Positions 1,659 through 64,000 of a DNA stretch of 64,000 nt are shown here, piece after piece. The DNA is from Nostoc cf. commune SO-36. Its GTDB lineage: Bacteria > Cyanobacteriota > Cyanobacteriia > Cyanobacteriales > Nostocaceae. Numbering within the stretch: the stretch's first letter is position 1; every line of letters starts with the position of its first letter. A program made the position numbers and the translations under genes. The DNA is taken from positions 4,347,001 through 4,411,000 of the forward strand of contig NZ_AP025732.1 in assembly GCF_023734775.1 (NCBI RefSeq), in the 5' to 3' direction. Below the pieces are notes generated by a model. The model did not search any database and was not told where the DNA came from. It saw only the letters and a list, made by a program, of their open reading frames with translations.

Positions 1659-2189
1659 ATGACTGCAAGTTATGACAAAACTATTTCTCAAGCCCAAAGC
1701 AATGAAACTCAAAATTTGGTGGATGCGTTTAACGCCTTAGATACCGATGCCAAATTAGCTTGGTTTTATTTTGTTTATAAAAAAATGGGTGATTCTGTGA
1801 CGCCAGCTGTTCCGACTGCGGCTGAACCAGAATTAGCACCAATTTTGCTAGGAGATTATTTTGAATTATCTGATGATGAGCAACTAGCAATTATGCGGGA
1901 TATTGTTAACCGCAAAGATACGGAGTATTCTCGCGCTTATGGGTCGATCAAAGAAAACAACCAGCTGTTGGTTTGGTATGCTTGGGCGGTAGCTATGGGA
2001 AATCAAGTGGTTGGGATGCCAGCTAACTACGAGCCAAGTAAGGAAATTAATGATCTACTTTCCCAAACTGAAGGGCTAGATTTTGAAGAGCAAATTTCAA
2101 TATTTCGGACAATAGCTGGTGAATTGGGTTACACCGATGTCAAGCCGATCGCAACGCAAGCAGAAACTGGAAAAACGTCAAGTTTGTAA
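1659..2189 (+). CDS. Helical carotenoid protein (OCP N-terminal domain homologue)
   Basis: 176-residue all-helical protein matching the N-terminal carotenoid-binding domain of the orange carotenoid protein over its whole length. Visible family features are AWFYFVYKKMGDSVTPA near residue 34, a second helical repeat with SRAYG near 91, and LLVWYAWAVAMG followed by PANYEPS near 105-125. The C-terminal light-sensing domain of full OCP is absent, so this is a stand-alone HCP. The family quenches singlet oxygen or phycobilisome excitation. ATG at 1659 is preceded by GGAGA. Transcribed alone. Confidence 0.88.
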   Translation: MTASYDKTISQAQSNETQNLVDAFNALDTDAKLAWFYFVYKKMGDSVTPAVPTAAEPELAPILLGDYFELSDDEQLAIMRDIVNRKDTEYSRAYGSIKENNQLLVWYAWAVAMGNQVVGMPANYEPSKEINDLLSQTEGLDFEEQISIFRTIAGELGYTDVKPIATQAETGKTSSL

Positions 2190-2248
2190 TCAGCCTTGGC
2201 GACTTCGAGTCGCCGCTATACAAATGTTTGCATAGCCTCCCGCAGGCA

Positions 2249-2266
2249 AGTCCGCGAATGCGGACT
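2249..2266. terminator. Hairpin between convergent genes
   Basis: AGTCCGC-GAAT-GCGGACT is a perfect 7-bp stem between the 3' ends of the carotenoid protein gene (+) and the ABC ATPase (-). It is followed on the plus strand by TTAATT. It may act as a two-way terminator and belongs to a repeat-like block (2229-2266). Confidence 0.4.
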
Positions 2267-2270
2267 TTAA

Positions 2271-3036
2271 TTATGAGAAAGCTAACTGACTCAAGTCATC
2301 TGGGGTTAAATTTGAGTGTACTACTTGACCATCACGGAACCAAAGGATGCGCTCGGTTTGACGAGCAACTTCTGGTTCATGTGTCACCATAACAACGGTA
2401 ATTCCACTATCATTAAGTTGGCCGAAAATATCTAAGACTTCTTGGGTTGTGCGCGAATCAAGTGCGCCTGTGGGTTCATCGGCTAGTAATACTACGGGAT
2501 CATTGACGAATCGCCCGAGCGATCGCTACTCTTTGTTGTTGTCCACCAGATAGTTGAGTTGGTTTGTTATTGAGGCGATTGGCTAAACCTACTCGTGTCA
2601 GTGCTACTGTTGCGCGATCGCTTCTTTCTTTTGGACTCACGCTAGCATACACCATTGGCAGCATCACATTTTCTAATGCTGTTAGTTGGGGCAATAAATG
2701 GAATTGTTGAAAGACAAACCCCAGCTTTTTATTACGAATGTGTGCCAAATTTGTATCATTCATTTGGGCCACATCGAGATTATCTAGATAATAGTGTCCA
2801 GAAGTCGGGCGATCTAAACAGCCGATAATATTCATGGCTGTAGATTTACCAGAACCAGAAGGCCCCATAATTGAACAATATTCGCCCTCGTGGATAGTCA
2901 AATTCACATCACTTAGCGCTCGAACTTCAGTTTCGCCACTGCCATATATTTTAAAAATATTTTCCAAACGAATAATTGTTGATTTCGGGATGGGATTGGG
3001 AACTGGAGAATCGGTAATTGAAATAGTATTTGCCAT
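2271..3036 (-). CDS. ABC transporter ATP-binding protein, MacB/LolD/DevA type, frameshifted
   Basis: ATPase of the MacB/LolD/DevA class that energises tripartite export or lipoprotein release. Walker A GPSGSGKST, Q-loop FVFQQFHLLPQ and signature LSGGQQQRVAIARAI are in the first frame. Walker B LLADEPTGALD and the switch His (VMVTHEP) follow in a second frame. An extra base near 2502 (ATTCGTCAAT instead of ATTGTCAAT) causes a premature stop directly after the signature. Repaired length is about 254 residues, normal for the family. No membrane-fusion or permease gene is adjacent, so the partner is unknown. Confidence 0.8.
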
Positions 3037-3151
3037 AAGTATTTAGTTGTTAGTTGGTAGAAAGGCAATTATTGCGATCGCCATAACACTCCTTACGCAA
3101 TGTGCAACTTTCTTTTAAACCTTAGAATAAATTGCACATCGCCTTACCTGA

Positions 3152-3658
3152 CTATCGACAACCCAAACTATCTCGCGTTGACATACCCGTAACCGGATTT
3201 ACCCCATCAGCTCTTTCACACAATAGTGACACCTGATAACGATCAATTAAAGCGTCTGTAAAATCAGCGCCTGTAATTTCGGCATCATAAAAACGGCTGC
3301 GAGTCAAAGTTGCTTCTGTAAGAATTGCATTTCTCAGGTTAGCACCATCCATAGTCACGCGATCTACTAAAGCGCCACTCAAGTTTGCGCCTTCCAGGTT
3401 TGCCTTTAATAAAACTCCTTTAGTCAAAATTGCGTTGGTTAAATTCGCCCCTTGGAAATTCGTCCCCCGCATTTCTGCTGCTACAAAAGTCACACCTGCC
3501 AAATCAGTATGAGAAAAGTCACGATTTTCTAAATTTATATTGTTGTAATTAATTGTGTTTATTTGAGCAAAAGCTGGTTTGGGGTTAAGTATTATCCACC
3601 CAAATGCTAGTAGCAAAATCACGATTAAACCAAAAAAGCGCAGTAAAATCTTTTTCAT
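3152..3658 (-). CDS. Pentapeptide-repeat protein, exported
   Basis: About 168 residues. An N-terminal signal peptide ([20 protein letters not shown], cleavage after AFA) is followed by tandem A(D/N)LxX pentapeptides from residue about 45 to 140 ([30 protein letters not shown]). These form a right-handed beta-helix. The C-terminus has two cysteines (SLLCERADG and SLGCR). The pattern resembles lumenal pentapeptide proteins of cyanobacteria and plastids. The ATG at 3658 was chosen because the in-frame ATG at 3676 lies at the edge of an intergenic heptamer repeat. Confidence 0.75.
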
Positions 3659-3692
3659 AACTTTATTATTTGTCATTAGTCCTTTGTCATTT

Positions 3693-3718
3693 AACCAATG
3701 ACTAATGACTAATGACTC
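3693..3718. repeat. Heptameric short tandem repeat (AATGACT)
   Basis: Three to four copies of a 7-base unit (CAATGACTAATGACTAATGA) between two minus-strand genes. It is typical of the short tandemly repeated repetitive sequences of heterocystous cyanobacteria. Confidence 0.7.
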
Positions 3719-3722
3719 TTAC

Positions 3723-5261
3723 CTATTTCCAATCTTTACCAATGCGAATTGTCAGATCAGATTCTAAATCACCAATTGCCGCTACCTCAATTTGACCCAA
3801 GCCTAAGACTTTTTGCAAATCAACTCCCACTCGTCGGTTGCCTTTTTGGACAACAATCTGAGTTTGACGTTGGGTATCTGGCCAATCAGGCACTTTGTAA
3901 ATATTAGTAAAGCCTTTCTGTTTCAGATAAGCAATAACTTTTTCAGTTAGCTGAGGTTGATTGGAAGCATTTTGAATAGCAATTTTGAGGTTAGGAACCT
4001 GACGCATATCTGGTTTTAGACCAGGTACATTTACCCCAACATAATCATTCAACAGGCTCTGTTGTCCAGTCATATTCAGCCAATAGCTATCAGGATCTTT
4101 GCTAAAACGGCTAAATGTACCAGGCAACACGGTCATTTGGAAATTATCCCGATCGAGGTTGAGACCGAAGTTTACCAACGCCATCATTTCTTCCATCTTC
4201 AGGTTGGTATCAAAGTATTTTCGCATTAAGCGAGTTAATTGAGGCAACCTGGGTAAGACAGTAGGACTATTTAAGCGTTGCAGCAGGGCTGCTATGAGTG
4301 CTTGCTGACGCTGCACTCTCGGCAAATCTCCCAAACCTGGTTCACGGAATCGAACAAACTGTTCTGCTTGTTCGCCGTTGAGGGTTTGCCAGCCACTGAC
4401 TAAATTAATCGACAATCGACTGCTGGAGTCTTTATATGCCATTGATTGGGGAACAAAGACCTCAACTCCGCCTAACTGATCGACTAACTGCCGTAAGCCA
4501 CTAGTAGAAATGCGGATATAACGATCGATTGGGGCATTGTTTAAGGTACGACTAACTACCCGTGCTGCCAAAACTGGGCCGCCTTGGGCATTGGCATCAG
4601 ATACCTTAGTTAATCCCTTTTCTCCCTTTTCGGGGATAGCGATCATTGTATCTCTGGGAATCGAAAGCACTCGTACAGATTTTTCACTAGGGTTAAGCCG
4701 TACCAGCAGCATGGAATCGCTTTTTCCAGCAAAGCTTTCTGGTGAACCATCAACCGTACCATTGACTGGTTCAATCCCCATAATTAAAATATTCATCGGT
4801 CGTGAAAGCTGGTACTGGGAGAGTTTGCTCCATAACTCCCCTGGTAATGGTATTTTTACGTCGTCTTTACCAGTAGTTCCTAAATCTTCATCTGTTCGAT
4901 CTAGATTGCTCCACAAAGGAGTCCACAACGCTAACGTTGATACTAGCAACCCAGATAATATAACGCCGATGACAACCGTCATGATCCACAACAGCCATCG
5001 AGGCATGGTCAAGCCCAGTCTCTCATAAAGCTGATTGGGAATTGCGCCTACTGATTCGACGACACTACGGTTTGGATTCGCTGGCTGGTTTAGTTCGACA
5101 TCCTCCTCCTCTGAGTCGGCTACTACTGGTGCAGGCGTTACTTGATTTTCTGTTCGTTGAAGTTGCTGCGATCGCACCTCAGTTTGAAATTCTACTTGTT
5201 GAGATGTCACCGGATTTTCCGACCATTCGACTTGTTTTATCACAATTATCTCCCCACTCAA
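3723..5261 (-). CDS. LytR-CpsA-Psr (LCP) family protein with LytR_C domain
   Basis: 512 residues. A cytoplasmic Glu/Gln-rich N-terminus comes first, then one membrane segment at about 91-115 (LLWIMTVVIGVILSGLLVS). The LCP catalytic domain is at about 150-330 (NILIMGIEP, SDSMLLVRLNP, LSIPRDTMI, ending RVQRQQALI). A LytR_C domain follows at about 405-490. LCP enzymes transfer lipid-linked glycans onto peptidoglycan or other acceptors outside the membrane. It is divergent from a mannose-1-phosphate guanylyltransferase gene, which fits an envelope-polysaccharide role, but the acceptor is not known. Confidence 0.85.
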   Translation of the reverse strand: MSGEIIVIKQVEWSENPVTSQQVEFQTEVRSQQLQRTENQVTPAPVVADSEEEDVELNQPANPNRSVVESVGAIPNQLYERLGLTMPRWLLWIMTVVIGVILSGLLVSTLALWTPLWSNLDRTDEDLGTTGKDDVKIPLPGELWSKLSQYQLSRPMNILIMGIEPVNGTVDGSPESFAGKSDSMLLVRLNPSEKSVRVLSIPRDTMIAIPEKGEKGLTKVSDANAQGGPVLAARVVSRTLNNAPIDRYIRISTSGLRQLVDQLGGVEVFVPQSMAYKDSSSRLSINLVSGWQTLNGEQAEQFVRFREPGLGDLPRVQRQQALIAALLQRLNSPTVLPRLPQLTRLMRKYFDTNLKMEEMMALVNFGLNLDRDNFQMTVLPGTFSRFSKDPDSYWLNMTGQQSLLNDYVGVNVPGLKPDMRQVPNLKIAIQNASNQPQLTEKVIAYLKQKGFTNIYKVPDWPDTQRQTQIVVQKGNRRVGVDLQKVLGLGQIEVAAIGDLESDLTIRIGKDWK

Positions 5262-58593: not shown

Positions 58594-59657
58594 CTAATGA
58601 CTAATTGACTGCAAAGGTAATAATTTAGGACGCAGAGCGGAAGGGTTGATGCCTGCTTTATGTGCTACTAATACACCTATTGCTTCTAAATATGAGTTTA
58701 CCTGTATAGCTTTGATCCCCAACGGTTGGGGAGGAACTCTTATCAGAGTTTTATTTTCTTCTACTGTAATTATTTGGCATCGTCTTTGGCTTAAACTTAG
58801 TAAAGCACTGCTACCACAAGCAGTTGCAGGTGCGATCGCAGCATCTACTTCATCTGCCCAAATATCTCTTTTTTCTGATGCAGTCGCTCCTTTATCTATT
58901 ATAAATTGTGGGGCACGACTTAATCCTACAAGGACGCACGGCAAAAAAGTATAGCCTAATTCTTCGGCGGCAGAACGCGGAGATAAATCAGGTTGTGGAG
59001 GTTCGCTCAAAAGGGCGGGAGAATGGGCGCAAGGAATTTGAAAGGTTCGCACTAGCAAATGGCTAATTACGGCTTCTGCACCCGCCAGAGAATCTACGCC
59101 CTCACCCTGACGATATTTTTGTACTGCTTCCTCATCCATATCATCGGGGAAACGGGCAACAACTGCGATCGCTTCTGCCCCCGCTTTTTTAATTAATATC
59201 TCGGCTGCCCGTAATAAACTATCTGGGTTGCCAATTGTCCCCCAACTCGTTCCCGATGCTGTAGTACGCAATTCTACATTTAATGGGGCATCTGTAATTA
59301 CATAATCTGTTAAAGTCAATCCTAGAGTTGCTCTGACTGCATCGGCGGCTTGTATATGTCGTAGCCGTAACTCGGCTCAATACCTTGGTCTAAAAGCAAA
59401 CCCACTTTGTTGTTACGGACTGGACGCAAACCCCAGCATCCAGAGGCGAATTTGTCAAGCCCGTAACCTTCAACATAGAAAGCGTTAGGAAGGTTCCAGT
59501 ATAAACTTGCGCCATTGAGGACATTGGGGTGAGTAATTAGGCGATCGCAAACCTGTGCTATGACTCTAGCAACAGGTAAAGCATCTCCTGCATAACCCCC
59601 AATGGCAGCCCCAACGCCTGTTGGTACGATTAAGATAGCGGTGTATGGACGATTCAT
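58594..59657 (-). CDS. DUF3326 protein, frameshifted
   Basis: 354 residues after repair. The N-terminal part (AILIVPTGVGAAIGGYAGDA, then LPVARVIAQ) and C-terminal part (SPRSAAEELGYTFLPCVLVG, CGSSALLSLSQRR) match the cyanobacterial DUF3326 family over full length. A missing G near 59377 (GAGCCGAGTTACGG for GAGCCGGAGTTACGG) separates two frames; repaired it reads EPELRLRHIQAADAVRATLG. Function unknown. Confidence 0.8.
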
Positions 59658-60207: not shown

Positions 60208-60528
60208 TTATTTGCCTTTGCCAAATTGTAACTGATAAAGTGCATCTTCTTTTTCCGTCTGAATTTTCAAATCAGAAAGGGGTTTGGCAATACAAAGCAA
60301 TACGTAACCTTGCTTTTGCAAATCTGGACTAACGCCCATACCATCAGTTTGATCCACAGTTCCCTCGCTTATTTGACCGGCGCAAGTTGTGCAAACACCT
60401 GCATTACAAGAACTCGGCAGTTCCAAACCAGCAGCTTCGGCAACTGATAAGATCGTTTCATTTTCAGGAACTTGCAAGGTATGAATTTTGCCTTGGTGAT
60501 CAATTTCTACGGTGTAAGTTTTGGGCAT
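60208..60528 (-). CDS. [2Fe-2S] plant-type ferredoxin
   Basis: 106 residues from ATG at 60528. Cluster cysteines in LPSSCNAGVCTTCAGQI (CxxxxCxxC) and VLLCIAKP. The C-terminal extension (about 20 residues beyond the cluster) is longer than in photosynthetic PetF, resembling the alternative or C-terminally extended ferredoxins of cyanobacteria. Electron partner unknown. Confidence 0.9.
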   Translation of the reverse strand: MPKTYTVEIDHQGKIHTLQVPENETILSVAEAAGLELPSSCNAGVCTTCAGQISEGTVDQTDGMGVSPDLQKQGYVLLCIAKPLSDLKIQTEKEDALYQLQFGKGK

Positions 60529-60716
60529 ATACAAAAGAAGCGTGATGCAACGGACAAATGTATTAGTTTATCTGAATTAGTTAAAAATATCCAGATGTTA
60601 CTATAAAAATTTAGGGAAAAGATTGATAATTATAACAACCAATTCTGAACAACTTTTAGGTTAGTAACATTATTTACTATACAATACACAAATAAATTAG
60701 TTAAATTTGCTTATAT

Positions 60717-61214
60717 ATGAATATGCGCGATCGCGTTTCTTTAGAGACTGTATCTGTAAGTCTGCCTTTTGGCATTGGTTCGATGTCGTGGAAGGTTGAC
60801 ACCACACAAAAGAAGGCGGCTTGGTCGCTGTATGTGGAATTGGTGACGCGCATTGCTGTGCAACCATTAGAAGTTGACCAGGGTTTGGTACGGGAAGCGA
60901 TGAACTCTCTTTATAGTTTATTTGGCACTACCCGCGAAGTTCTCAAAGCAGCCGGGCCGGATGTGGGGGCTTCTCGTGATTCAGTGGGGGGAATTGCGAT
61001 CGCAGTGTTGAATAATGGGTTAAGGCCGTTTTTGGCTAAATGGCATCCGTTGTTGCAAGCGTGGGAAGCTAGACGACCTGTGGGGGTGAGTCCGAAGGAA
61101 CATGAGCAGAGTTGGTCGGAGGAAGCAAAGTTGCGAAGTGAGTTGGAAGTTTTGCGCGGTGGGTTGGAAGATTACGCCAAGGCGTTGGCAAAAATTGCTG
61201 GGGTGGAGGAGTGA
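60717..61214 (+). CDS. Conserved partner protein of a TIR-GUN4 module
   Basis: 165 residues (ATG at 60717 or 60723), mostly helical: VSVSLPFGIGSMSWKVDTTQ, then WSLYVELVTRIAVQPLE, MNSLYSLFGTTREVLKAAGP, and LRPFLAKWHPLLQAWEARRP, ending in a short coiled coil. No domain I can name. Its TGA stop overlaps the GTG start of the TIR gene (GTGA), so the two are translationally coupled. It is probably a regulator or sensor for the TIR protein. Confidence 0.65.
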   Translation: MNMRDRVSLETVSVSLPFGIGSMSWKVDTTQKKAAWSLYVELVTRIAVQPLEVDQGLVREAMNSLYSLFGTTREVLKAAGPDVGASRDSVGGIAIAVLNNGLRPFLAKWHPLLQAWEARRPVGVSPKEHEQSWSEEAKLRSELEVLRGGLEDYAKALAKIAGVEE

Positions 61215-62208
61215 TAACTGCCAAAGGATGTTTTCCTCTGCCACAATAGCAAAGAAAAGGCAGAGGTAGAAAAAATTAGAGCGCAGCTATTACAAGAAGG
61301 AATAGATGCTTGGCTAGATAAATATGACTTTGAGCCATTTCTTCCTTGGCAAGACCAACTAGAAACAATTATTTCACAAATCAAAGCAGCAGCCATATTT
61401 ATAGGTTCATCTGGTGTAGGCCCGTGGGCAGATATTGAAATGAAGGAGTTTCTTGTTGAATTTGTACAACGAAAACTACGTATGGGCTTAGTAATTCTTC
61501 CTGGTTGTCCTGATGAACTTATAAATACAGTTCCAAGATTCATGAAGCGGTTCCATTGTGTAGATTTTCGCCAACCAGATCCTGAACCGATGGGACAGTT
61601 GATTTGGGGTATTACTGGGAACAAGCCAAGGAGTAACGCCCATAATTCAGGCTCAATCACCAACAATTCCGCCGAAGCAAGAACTTGTGTTTTTAGGAGA
61701 TATTTCTCTGCCGAAGCGAGAACTTGTGTTTTTGGGAGATATTTCTCCTCCAGAACGCGACTTAGATGACCTATTCTCAGAAAAAGGCATAAACTACACC
61801 AGACTGCGTGACCTACTCGCAGCAAAAAACTGGGAAGAAGCCGACCAAGAAACCTATCGGGTGATGATTCAGGCTGTAGGTAAAAAAGATGGCGACTACT
61901 TCGTCTCAAACGAACTCTTAAATTTTCCTTGCACTGACTTACGCACAATTGACCGCTTATGGGTAGAATACAGCAATAGACAATTTGGCTTCAGCGTCCA
62001 GAAAAAAATTTACTTGAGCGTTGGCGGTAAAGCTGACGGCAAGTTTTACGAAAAAGCCTGGGAGAAGTTTGGCGATCGCGTGGGATGGAGAGTGAAAATT
62101 AATTGGATTTCTTACGAATGTATAAGGTATTCAGATGTTAACTTTGATACCTCTTCCCCAGAGGGGACACCTCCCTATAGTGGCTGGGACACCTCCCGGT
62201 TTTTATAA
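61211..62208 (+). CDS. TIR-GUN4 domain protein, two frameshifts
   Basis: About 331 residues after repair. TIR domain at about 1-135: DVFLCHNSKEKAEVEKI, WLDKYDFEPFLPWQDQLE (Glu in the usual catalytic area), AAIFIGSSGVGPW. Then a linker with a 13-residue repeat (ELVFLGDIS-L/P-P). A GUN4-type domain follows at about 185-331 (YTRLRDLLAAKNWEEADQET, TIDRLWVEYSNRQFGFSVQ). GTG start at 61211 overlaps the upstream stop. Extra bases at about 61226 and 61629 break the frame. TIR domains in such proteins often cleave NAD; GUN4 binds tetrapyrroles in its classic role. Likely a stress or defence effector. Confidence 0.75.
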
Positions 62209-62216
62209 GCATTTTT

Positions 62217-63102
62217 CTATACACAACGGGTTGTGTGGTAGGTTCCATACTCTCGCATCGAGACTTGTAAACTGTAACATTTAAGGCTCTCAGATATTTT
62301 TAAAGATTTATTACAAGCCCCGGATGCACGGTAGAATAAACATTTCAGATTTCCGATACCTGGCACTGCGGGGTTATAACAGTTCGCCTGAATAAATTTT
62401 TTTGCTACCTCATGCACCTCCGTATCTTCAGTGACTCTCTGCTTATCCCAAGGCAAACTCATCTGTCCCGGTGATTTCTTCTTACTCTTATTCTTCAAAG
62501 AAGGCAAAAAACGACTACCCCAATGATTCCTTTTTTCAGGCTTTGCCTTTGGTCGATATTTCTTACAAAACTGGCGATATCTAGCAGCGCATTCTTCCAA
62601 CGTCCTCCCCAATAGCAAAAACGCCGGATGCCATTGAGTGATACCATCATTACTCAAGCGGTCATGAGTGCCGTAATTGCTGAAGTCGTAGAAAAAACCC
62701 TGCTGTATTCCTGCGGCTTTCGGGTTAGCGTGGATATATCGCAGAGTATTTAACGCACGGCGTTTATCTGTATTGGCAAAACCTGTACTGTGGTAGCGCT
62801 TTTCCCAAAAATGCCCCGTGCGGTTGAGCATTCGGTTAAAACACATAGCAGTATACCAATTCAACCAGTGCATAATTTACGGTAAATCTTCTGGTTGTTT
62901 GGGTTCCAGCAGATAATGCACATGATTGCTCATAATGCACAAAGCATAGAGCTTAAATTGATATTTTTCCTGTGCCTTCTTGATGGCATACAGAAAGACT
63001 TCGCGGCATTCTAAGCGCGTTAGGCAAAGTTCGCGGTTATTGCAGCGAGTTCGTGATGTGATAGCAAAAGCCTGATTGTAAATTACGTTTTGGGCGAGGC
63101 AT
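62217..63102 (-). pseudogene. REP-associated tyrosine transposase (RAYT, Y1_Tnp), decayed
   Basis: Reconstructed 294 codons from ATG at 63102: MPRPKRNLQSGFCYHITN, CREVFLYAIKKAQEKYQF, and the HUH site IMSNHVHYLL. A downstream portion follows with HFWEKRYHSTGFANTDKRRA (catalytic Tyr region) and RALNTLRYIHANPKAAG. An extra T at about 63049 and a TAA at 62876-62878 (LPKIMHW read as LP-stop) inactivate it. RAYTs handle REP-type hairpins; such hairpin units lie at 59711 and 63388. Confidence 0.75.
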
Positions 63103-63166
63103 GAAAAAAATCGTTAAAATACCACGCTTGCTATAATGCACTCACCAACAAACTTTGCTCATCAAT

Positions 63167-63355
63167 GTTACAACATTAAGCCTTAAAGCTAGAACCTTAA
63201 GCCTTAAAGTTACAACATTAAGTCTTAAAGCTAGAACCTTAAGCCTTAAGGTTACAACATTAAGCTTTAGAGCTAGAACATTAAGCCTTAAGGTTACAAC
63301 ATTAAGCCTTAGAGCTAGAACCTTAAGCCTTAAGGTTACAACATTAAGCCTTAAA
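63167..63355. repeat. 21-bp tandem array D, 9 units in alternating pairs
   Basis: Units alternate between GTTACAACATTAAGCCTTAAA-like and GCTAGAACCTTAAGCCTTAA-like forms, giving a 42-bp higher-order repeat. CTTAAG palindromes recur. No spacers. Confidence 0.92.
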
Positions 63356-63387
63356 GTTAAAGCGATATGGAATACAGACCATTTGTA

Positions 63388-63801: not shown

Positions 63802-64000
63802 ATGACTAGAAGAAAACGTAGTTCTCGGATTTTAGAAAAAGCTGAGTTTAGAGTTGCCGGGCTGAAAGCTATCAATCCAAATATCAATTTTGATGATACT
63901 CACAACTTGCAAAACCTGACTCAATTAATAGACAATTTTCACAATCTGCTTGATGATTATAACGCTGCGATCGCTATGATTGACTCTTCTAGGAATAAGC
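63802..64000 (+). CDS. Hypothetical protein, runs off the window
   Basis: The first 66 codons are visible, with a basic start (MTRRKRSSRILEKAEFRVAG), then LKAINPNINFDDTHNLQNLT and helical LIDNFHNLLDDYNAAIAMID. No family recognised from this part. The 3' end lies outside. Confidence 0.55.
   Translation, partial: MTRRKRSSRILEKAEFRVAGLKAINPNINFDDTHNLQNLTQLIDNFHNLLDDYNAAIAMIDSSRNK

Follow-up and report, generated by a model that had tools for sequence, protein, structure and literature searches.

The 64,000-nucleotide window (the whole stretch of DNA analyzed here, from a host genome of 7.4 Mb in 5 contigs) contains near its right end what is rather probably a two-gene TIR conflict module in damaged form, in which a constant partner would gate or relay the activity of an exchangeable TIR. 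In the mechanism that we propose, the first gene would specify a small, highly conserved helical protein, the constant component, and the second an exchangeable TIR enzyme that would cleave NAD or yield a signal of the ADP-ribose kind and that would carry a variable C-terminal domain, GUN4 in the window copy. The partner would be an adaptor or the receiver of the TIR product rather than an obligatory antitoxin, and the module as a whole is probably an anti-phage system of the cell-suicide type. The features of the window on which the argument draws are as follows.

58594-59657, minus strand: DUF3326 gene, split into two frames (profile search)
60208..60534, minus strand: 2Fe-2S ferredoxin gene, left flank (position shared by many related strains)
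60717..61214, plus strand: constant partner, 165 amino acids (list of open reading frames, AlphaFold model, family alignment)
61218..61769 (domain about 61230-61601), plus strand: TIR piece (Pfam TIR_2, E 2.3e-15)
61687..62208 (domain about 61777-62184), plus strand: GUN4 piece (Pfam GUN4, E 5.5e-38)
62217..63108 (extent approximate), minus strand: decayed Y1/IS200-like transposase remnant (open reading frame 62217-62873, DNA similarity)
63167..63359, strand not applicable: tandem repeat with a period of 42 and 4.5 copies (42-bp repeat array)
63802..64000, plus strand: right flank gene, running off the window (DNA conserved in position across many related strains)

An initial annotation of this DNA had described a conflict-type module with a coupled partner, and a survey of gene neighborhoods bears this out. 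Among 388 genomes of the order, a TIR domain lies within 3 kb of the partner, on either side and either strand, in 45 of 47 partner copies, two of the 45 neighbors being weak matches (E 1e-3 and 1e-4), and directly downstream within 500 bp in 34 of the 47. These copies were not chosen for TIR; they were taken at a cut of at least 95 profile positions, and for about half of them the flank examined was 1.5 kb or less. The copy at locus L239, which meets the cut, has a TIR directly downstream, and the copy at L238, which falls just below it, has none in the 7 kb examined. Since 24 relatives have 146 TIR_2 matches in approximately 166 Mb, only about 0.3 chance TIR neighbors would be expected among 47 copies. 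In the GTDB-wide set the figure is 48 of 59 full-length copies within 3 kb, with eleven lacking a TIR neighbor, so that the family is not found mostly away from TIR genes.

The downstream gene is more uniform in its TIR than in what follows it. Among 56 distinct downstream open reading frames of at least 140 amino acids, TIR_2 is present in 49 and GUN4 in 28; other C-terminal parts are FGE-sulfatase (four), TPR (four) and WD40 (two), and there are single partner-linked cases with EAD10, iSTAND or Methyltransf_33. No caspase appeared among the 25 of 87 families listed for these frames. The four partner-linked TIR proteins that appear to end in FGE-sulfatase were identified by eye as those at L023, L025, L055 and L056. 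The partner, then, is TIR-linked rather than GUN4-linked. The order of the genes can vary: TIR lies upstream of the partner at some loci, as a 1,022-residue WD40-TIR protein at L118 and at L120 as three consecutive open reading frames (positions 1766-5086), which together hold six TIR domains and one GUN4 and lie immediately before the partner gene. In Nonomuraea, the TIR and partner genes overlap according to a mechanical gene call. Four full-length partner genes (L081, L082, L083 and L086) have no TIR in the stretch examined, and a TIR-independent role of the partner is possible there. As a side observation, a gene that by eye is FtsH-like lies upstream of the partner in L081 and L083, the two loci inspected.

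What sets the two genes apart is that the partner is constant and the TIR changes. The comparison was confined to units having a partner, a TIR and a GUN4 domain (36 units, 32 of them distinct), and it leaves aside the global DNA identities of TIR segments, which free end gaps make unreliable. For the 80 pairs of units with partners 95-99.5% identical, median identity is 38% for TIR, with 63 of the 80 under 50%, and 74% for GUN4. With partners at least 85% identical (165 pairs from the 32 distinct units), TIR identity falls under 50% in 124 pairs and GUN4 identity in 8. Across the distinct units, partner similarity is correlated with GUN4 similarity (Mantel r 0.66, p 0.001), and its correlation with TIR similarity is not significant (Mantel r 0.15, p 0.066). 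A three-unit tandem array at L045 has partners that are 98-99% identical, TIRs that are 28-49% identical and GUN4s that are 71-76% identical.

The boundaries of the changing segment can be followed in the DNA. At 12 loci, a set in which some strains appear twice (L013, L014, L015, L016, L017, L019, L022, L043, L044, L045, L047 and L048), similarity to the window ends between 61212 and 61276 and restarts between 61764 and 61777; at six loci with the TIR type of the window (L012, L018, L041, L046, L049 and L054), it continues to about 61628. Moreover, the flank on the ferredoxin side and the right flank gene at 63802, of which 66 residues are visible in the window and have no Pfam match, are found at the same place both in L044 and L048, which have other TIR types, and in L041, L046 and L049, which have that of the window. 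Judging from these alignments, one TIR segment takes the place of another while the flanks stay constant, and at least some of these exchanges are at a single chromosomal locus. That the TIRs instead diverged rapidly where they stand is less likely, given that TIR types reappear beside different partners; one type (60% linkage) is found with partners as different as 71%. We infer that recombination exchanges the segment, using conserved sequence in the partner gene on one side and at the start of GUN4 on the other, a replacement that phage countermeasures would probably drive.

The initial annotation had assigned the first gene to a helical protein of 165 residues and unnamed family, and this description holds. 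Searches of Pfam, NCBIfam, PADLOC (E up to 1) and PHROGs (E up to 0.1) gave no match to the window partner. A search of Pfam with 50 members of the family gave scattered weak matches at chance level (best E 0.0065, at most two members per Pfam family), a profile of the family found nothing better than E 1.9 in the PDB and no match in 50,697 phage records, and we did not find the family named in the open-licence literature (main texts, mostly titles and the openings of abstracts). The AlphaFold model (pLDDT 85.8, pTM 0.80) has a beta hairpin and four main helices. It resembles only common four-helix arrangements, with no known ligand-binding fold recognized, and we therefore infer no function from the fold. 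The alignment has 28 invariant columns across cyanobacteria and actinobacteria, and the window protein has no hydrophobic segment. R103 and H110 are invariant in 50 of 50 members, and this R-x6-H pattern recalls the R-x4-6-H motif of HEPN ribonucleases; the Arg is replaced, as judged by eye, in the Ruegeria homolog, HEPN chains match only at E about 2, and the HEPN reading was set aside.

The closest named relatives of the window partner are in Nostoc strains. Counting fragments, matches occur in 46 of the 388 genomes of the order and in 23 of 386 genomes of a phylum sample, and likewise in 70 loci of GTDB genomes, five actinobacteria among them, and in 12 plasmid records, 11 of which are outside the cyanobacteria. 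Truncated relics are also seen, and some of them break at or beside a palindrome in the partner gene, GCGATCGC, at codons about 93-96. We take this palindrome to be HIP1. At least four of 12 truncated copies (L095, L097, L099 and L104) are broken there, which suggests HIP1-linked deletion or recombination behind these relics.

The relics bear on whether the partner simply neutralizes the TIR, as the antitoxin of a toxin-antitoxin pair. The layout, a small gene tightly spaced upstream of a predicted toxic enzyme, fits such a pair, but we regard it as very improbable. Intact TIR-GUN4 open reading frames are present in two genomes without a partner match (G272 and G383), in G077, where the partner survives only as a 24-residue relic, and, free of a partner, at second sites in G265, G356 and G378. 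Because intact TIR-GUN4 frames thus occur without the partner, an obligatory antitoxin or inhibitor role is disfavored, and with it the inhibitor role initially suggested for the partner. In addition, an antitoxin constant at 95-99.5% would face TIRs sharing under 50% identity, and many relics (among the 12 truncated copies) retain the start of the partner gene after the TIR has gone.

Relatives on plasmids point instead to a regulatory or relay role. We covered nine of the 12 plasmid records (H1 is the Calothrix plasmid of L059, and H3 and H4, from the species of H2, were left out). TIR lies within 5 kb of the partner domain in eight of the nine regions, which span Actinomycetota, Pseudomonadota and Bacteroidota: two from Streptomyces and one each from Photobacterium, Vibrio, Aureispira, Sinorhizobium, Mesorhizobium and Rhizobium. 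For H12, a record lacking annotation, the TIR was recognized by eye in an upstream open reading frame, with one weak profile match elsewhere; in the Ruegeria region (H8) a search for TIR found none. In Sinorhizobium and Mesorhizobium the partner domain makes up the N-terminal part of a protein that also matches Patatin, at E 2.1e-5 (below the Pfam cut-off) in one and 1.2e-8 (above it) in the other, and an open reading frame of Rhizobium is similar to these proteins by eye. The large rhizobial proteins with the partner domain (L233:4902-7526, L234:4902-7478 and L237:4827-7574) have about six hydrophobic segments and TIR genes around them. In Aureispira, as in those actinobacterial proteins that were checked, one or two hydrophobic segments precede the partner domain. 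The first part of the partner at L130 (profile positions 3-120) is naturally fused to GUN4 and followed by a TIR-GUN4 gene. Joining of the domain to patatin, hydrophobic segments and GUN4 suits a regulatory or relay domain, and the constancy of the partner against the changing TIR, taken together with its fusion to output-type parts, favors such a role for the partner of the window as well.

Genes like those for nucleoside 2-deoxyribosyltransferase adjoin or lie near the partner at L031 and L232:283-672 (Pfam) and at L040 (by resemblance), and genes annotated as NUDIX hydrolases do so at L235:5613-6152 and L236:4170-4739, pointing to NAD or ADP-ribose chemistry; cas genes adjoin the Aureispira locus. 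From neighbors of these kinds (EAD10, iSTAND, Nuc_deoxyri_tr2, NUDIX and cas genes) and from published related systems, we infer that the module would serve in defense.

How the partner would receive the TIR output is a further step. In a Thoeris-like arrangement the TIR would make an ADP-ribose-type messenger, which the partner domain would bind to switch on the part attached to it, a scheme that is possible but doubtful. Partners constant at 95-99.5% accompany TIRs diverged beyond 50%, and a common small molecule fits such constancy better than a tight protein interface; since partner-TIR covariation is not significant, the TIR product is mildly favored over the TIR protein as what the partner binds. 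The output-type parts joined to the domain (patatin and hydrophobic segments), the NUDIX-annotated genes adjoining it in two Streptomyces plasmids, and the Nuc_deoxyri_tr2 genes beside the partner in L031 and in its vicinity on the Aureispira plasmid are likewise in keeping with a receptor. However, the partner has no recognized ligand-binding fold, the cyanobacterial partner stands alone, without an effector domain, and different TIR types may yield different products. In a more general form, which we put forward tentatively, the partner could be the founding member of an undescribed helical receptor or adaptor domain, spread over at least four phyla, to which exchangeable TIRs would pass their output, and would thereby define a new TIR signaling system: alone in cyanobacteria, carried on membrane helices in actinobacteria and Aureispira, and on a patatin-like protein in rhizobia. 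At a fixed locus of Nostoc, the TIR would be traded in the manner of a cassette within unchanging surroundings.

The TIR and GUN4 assignments themselves are borne out by the Pfam searches listed above, in which the C-terminal part scores as GUN4. The fusion of the two, which the initial annotation had placed in this DNA, exists in relatives; in the window, the TIR and GUN4 pieces are in different reading frames. A model of the TIR-GUN4 protein of a relative (L042) comprises a TIR plus a GUN4 domain (pLDDT 81.1, pTM 0.51); Foldseek placed it closest to Gun4 (1z3x, E 8.7e-9) and to TIRs including the NAD hydrolase AbTir (E 6.9e-5), and its sequence matches AbTir and Cat1. Glu75 of the W-x-x-x-E motif, which we take to be the catalytic Glu of the TIR, is invariant in 26 of 26 aligned relatives, and the TIR piece of the window retains the motif with its Glu. 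The TIR is a predicted NADase, which would cleave NAD or generate an ADP-ribose signal.

The GUN4 domain had suggested a different logic, in which GUN4 would read the tetrapyrrole or photosynthetic state and gate the TIR, with the partner, made in fixed ratio, as sensor or inhibitor. The fold and core of GUN4 are kept in TIR-GUN4 proteins, and Kaur et al. (2020; PMC7159879) propose, in the available part of their text, that GUN4 senses the state of photosynthesis in fusions of this kind. Nevertheless, we consider this logic unlikely. Phe196 and Arg214 of the Syn protein are described as porphyrin-binding residues of Gun4 in the accessible text of PMC8967248, and the equivalent positions are F in three and R in one of 29 distinct TIR-GUN4 proteins, at the end of the domain where the alignment is uncertain, with gaps in 11 of the 29 at the Arg. 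The stretch N-x-[LI]-R-G-x-R, which is present in the authentic Gun4 of the same genome, is found in none of the 29. Because the end of GUN4 aligns so poorly, the missing porphyrin residues are a caution more than a proof, and tetrapyrrole sensing by TIR-GUN4 is possible but unsupported. Also against this logic, half of the distinct downstream frames lack GUN4 (28 of 56 have it), and the GTGA overlap that had been taken to imply a fixed ratio is absent. The frame entered from the GTG at 61211 runs for only about a dozen codons before a stop and is not that of the TIR; the TIR frame opens with a CTG at 61218, 3' of the partner's stop, and has no ATG, GTG or TTG start at the junction. In intact relatives of the pair, the TIR start is often just 3' of the stop of the partner, and the gap is exactly 3 nucleotides in 18 of 89 rows (some strains counted twice). 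As an aside, the genome of the window has eight GUN4 matches, which include one authentic Gun4 and two kinase-GUN4 proteins as judged by sequence.

Returning to the module as a constant partner with an exchangeable TIR, we note that the copy in the window, as read, would no longer be functional. Besides the change of frame, the GUN4 piece diverges from its relatives near its end, and a GHLP stretch, whose H is present in 26 of 29 distinct relatives, is unreadable. The neighboring DUF3326 gene, which is whole in two related genomes, is also split, its pieces covering profile positions 1-91 and 110-337. In a small test of open reading frames of relatives against the window, 8 were intact and 3 broken (TIR-GUN4 once and DUF3326 twice), and in the reverse test 10 were intact and 0 broken. 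Since DUF3326 is split as well, assembly error and real decay are indistinguishable here as the source of the breaks. The chances that the module is dead in this strain (SO-36), its pair a decaying remnant, seem to us evenly balanced; this is compatible with our preferred explanation. Decay would account for the frame breaks and the lack of a standard start, and truncated partner relics in related strains, several at one locus, are consistent with it. Against it, the split DUF3326 neighbor may point to assembly errors and the partner itself is intact; nor does decay in this strain speak to the module elsewhere.

The surroundings agree with the initial description of an accessory locus, in that both the decayed transposase and the 42-bp repeat array at 63167-63359 are present. 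DNA of the remnant is similar to a transposase gene in L084 (62608-63074) and to L089 (62681-63066), and its score with Pfam Y1_Tnp is below the Pfam cut-off. By eye, the remnant was labeled REP-associated.

TIR enzymes hold a central place in the immunity of bacteria, plants and animals, and every TIR system requires a component linking the TIR to sensing or to output. The partner has the look of an undescribed component that TIR-based defenses of bacteria have in common: a conserved, unnamed domain that goes with TIR genes in Cyanobacteriota, Actinomycetota, Pseudomonadota and Bacteroidota could fill this missing place. Meanwhile, a fixed locus at which the TIR is exchanged between constant flanks provides a natural experiment on what drives the turnover of TIRs.

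Among known systems, Thoeris (ThsA/ThsB) resembles the module in joining a TIR protein to a second protein and, possibly, in signaling through a TIR product. ThsA of Thoeris is of the SIR2-SLOG or Macro type. The partner, in contrast, matches no Pfam or PADLOC model and hence neither SIR2-SLOG nor Macro, and the TIR piece of the window matches the ThsB models of PADLOC weakly (best E 0.029). The kinase-GUN4 proteins represented by the PADLOC model PD-T4-6 share the GUN4 domain, and the GUN4 piece of the window matches this model (E 4.6e-42, positions 297-424 of 450) so strongly that the model may label unrelated GUN4 proteins as defense proteins; in the present module, however, a TIR serves as the effector and has a partner gene of its own. 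The targets of diversity-generating retroelements, as far as the available text of PMC7517822 describes them, are also variable multidomain cyanobacterial proteins with TIR-like and GUN4-like modules, and FGE-sulfatase, a type diversified by these elements in cyanobacteria, occurs in four partner-linked proteins. The variation seen here differs in being the replacement of a whole TIR segment.

The nearest precedent is the two-gene logic of EACC1, described in PMC7159879, and of EACC2, described in 2021 (PMC8195603), in both cases as given in the accessible text of these papers. There too a constant component adjoins or accompanies a fixed catalytic part with a highly variable C-terminal part; the variable parts include repeats, STAND and signaling domains, and most reports of these systems concern multicellular bacteria. 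Their fixed part is described as a caspase or, in some cases, a cyclase, whereas in the present module it is a TIR that is itself exchanged, and the constant component has one transmembrane segment in EACC1 and is alpha+beta in EACC2, whereas here it is a helical bundle. Indeed, the window partner has no transmembrane helix and the fixed part downstream is TIR_2 (49 of 56), not caspase; EACC1 was absent from the 19 weakly matching families over 50 partner members, in a library that may hold no EACC1 model. Kaur et al. (2020; PMC7159879) found GUN4 together with kinases, caspases, trypsin and TIR. Thus, going by the available text of these sources, GUN4-TIR fusions and two-gene systems with a constant component were already known, and the present module differs from the latter in having a TIR as the effector, a helical protein as the constant component, and an exchange of the TIR.
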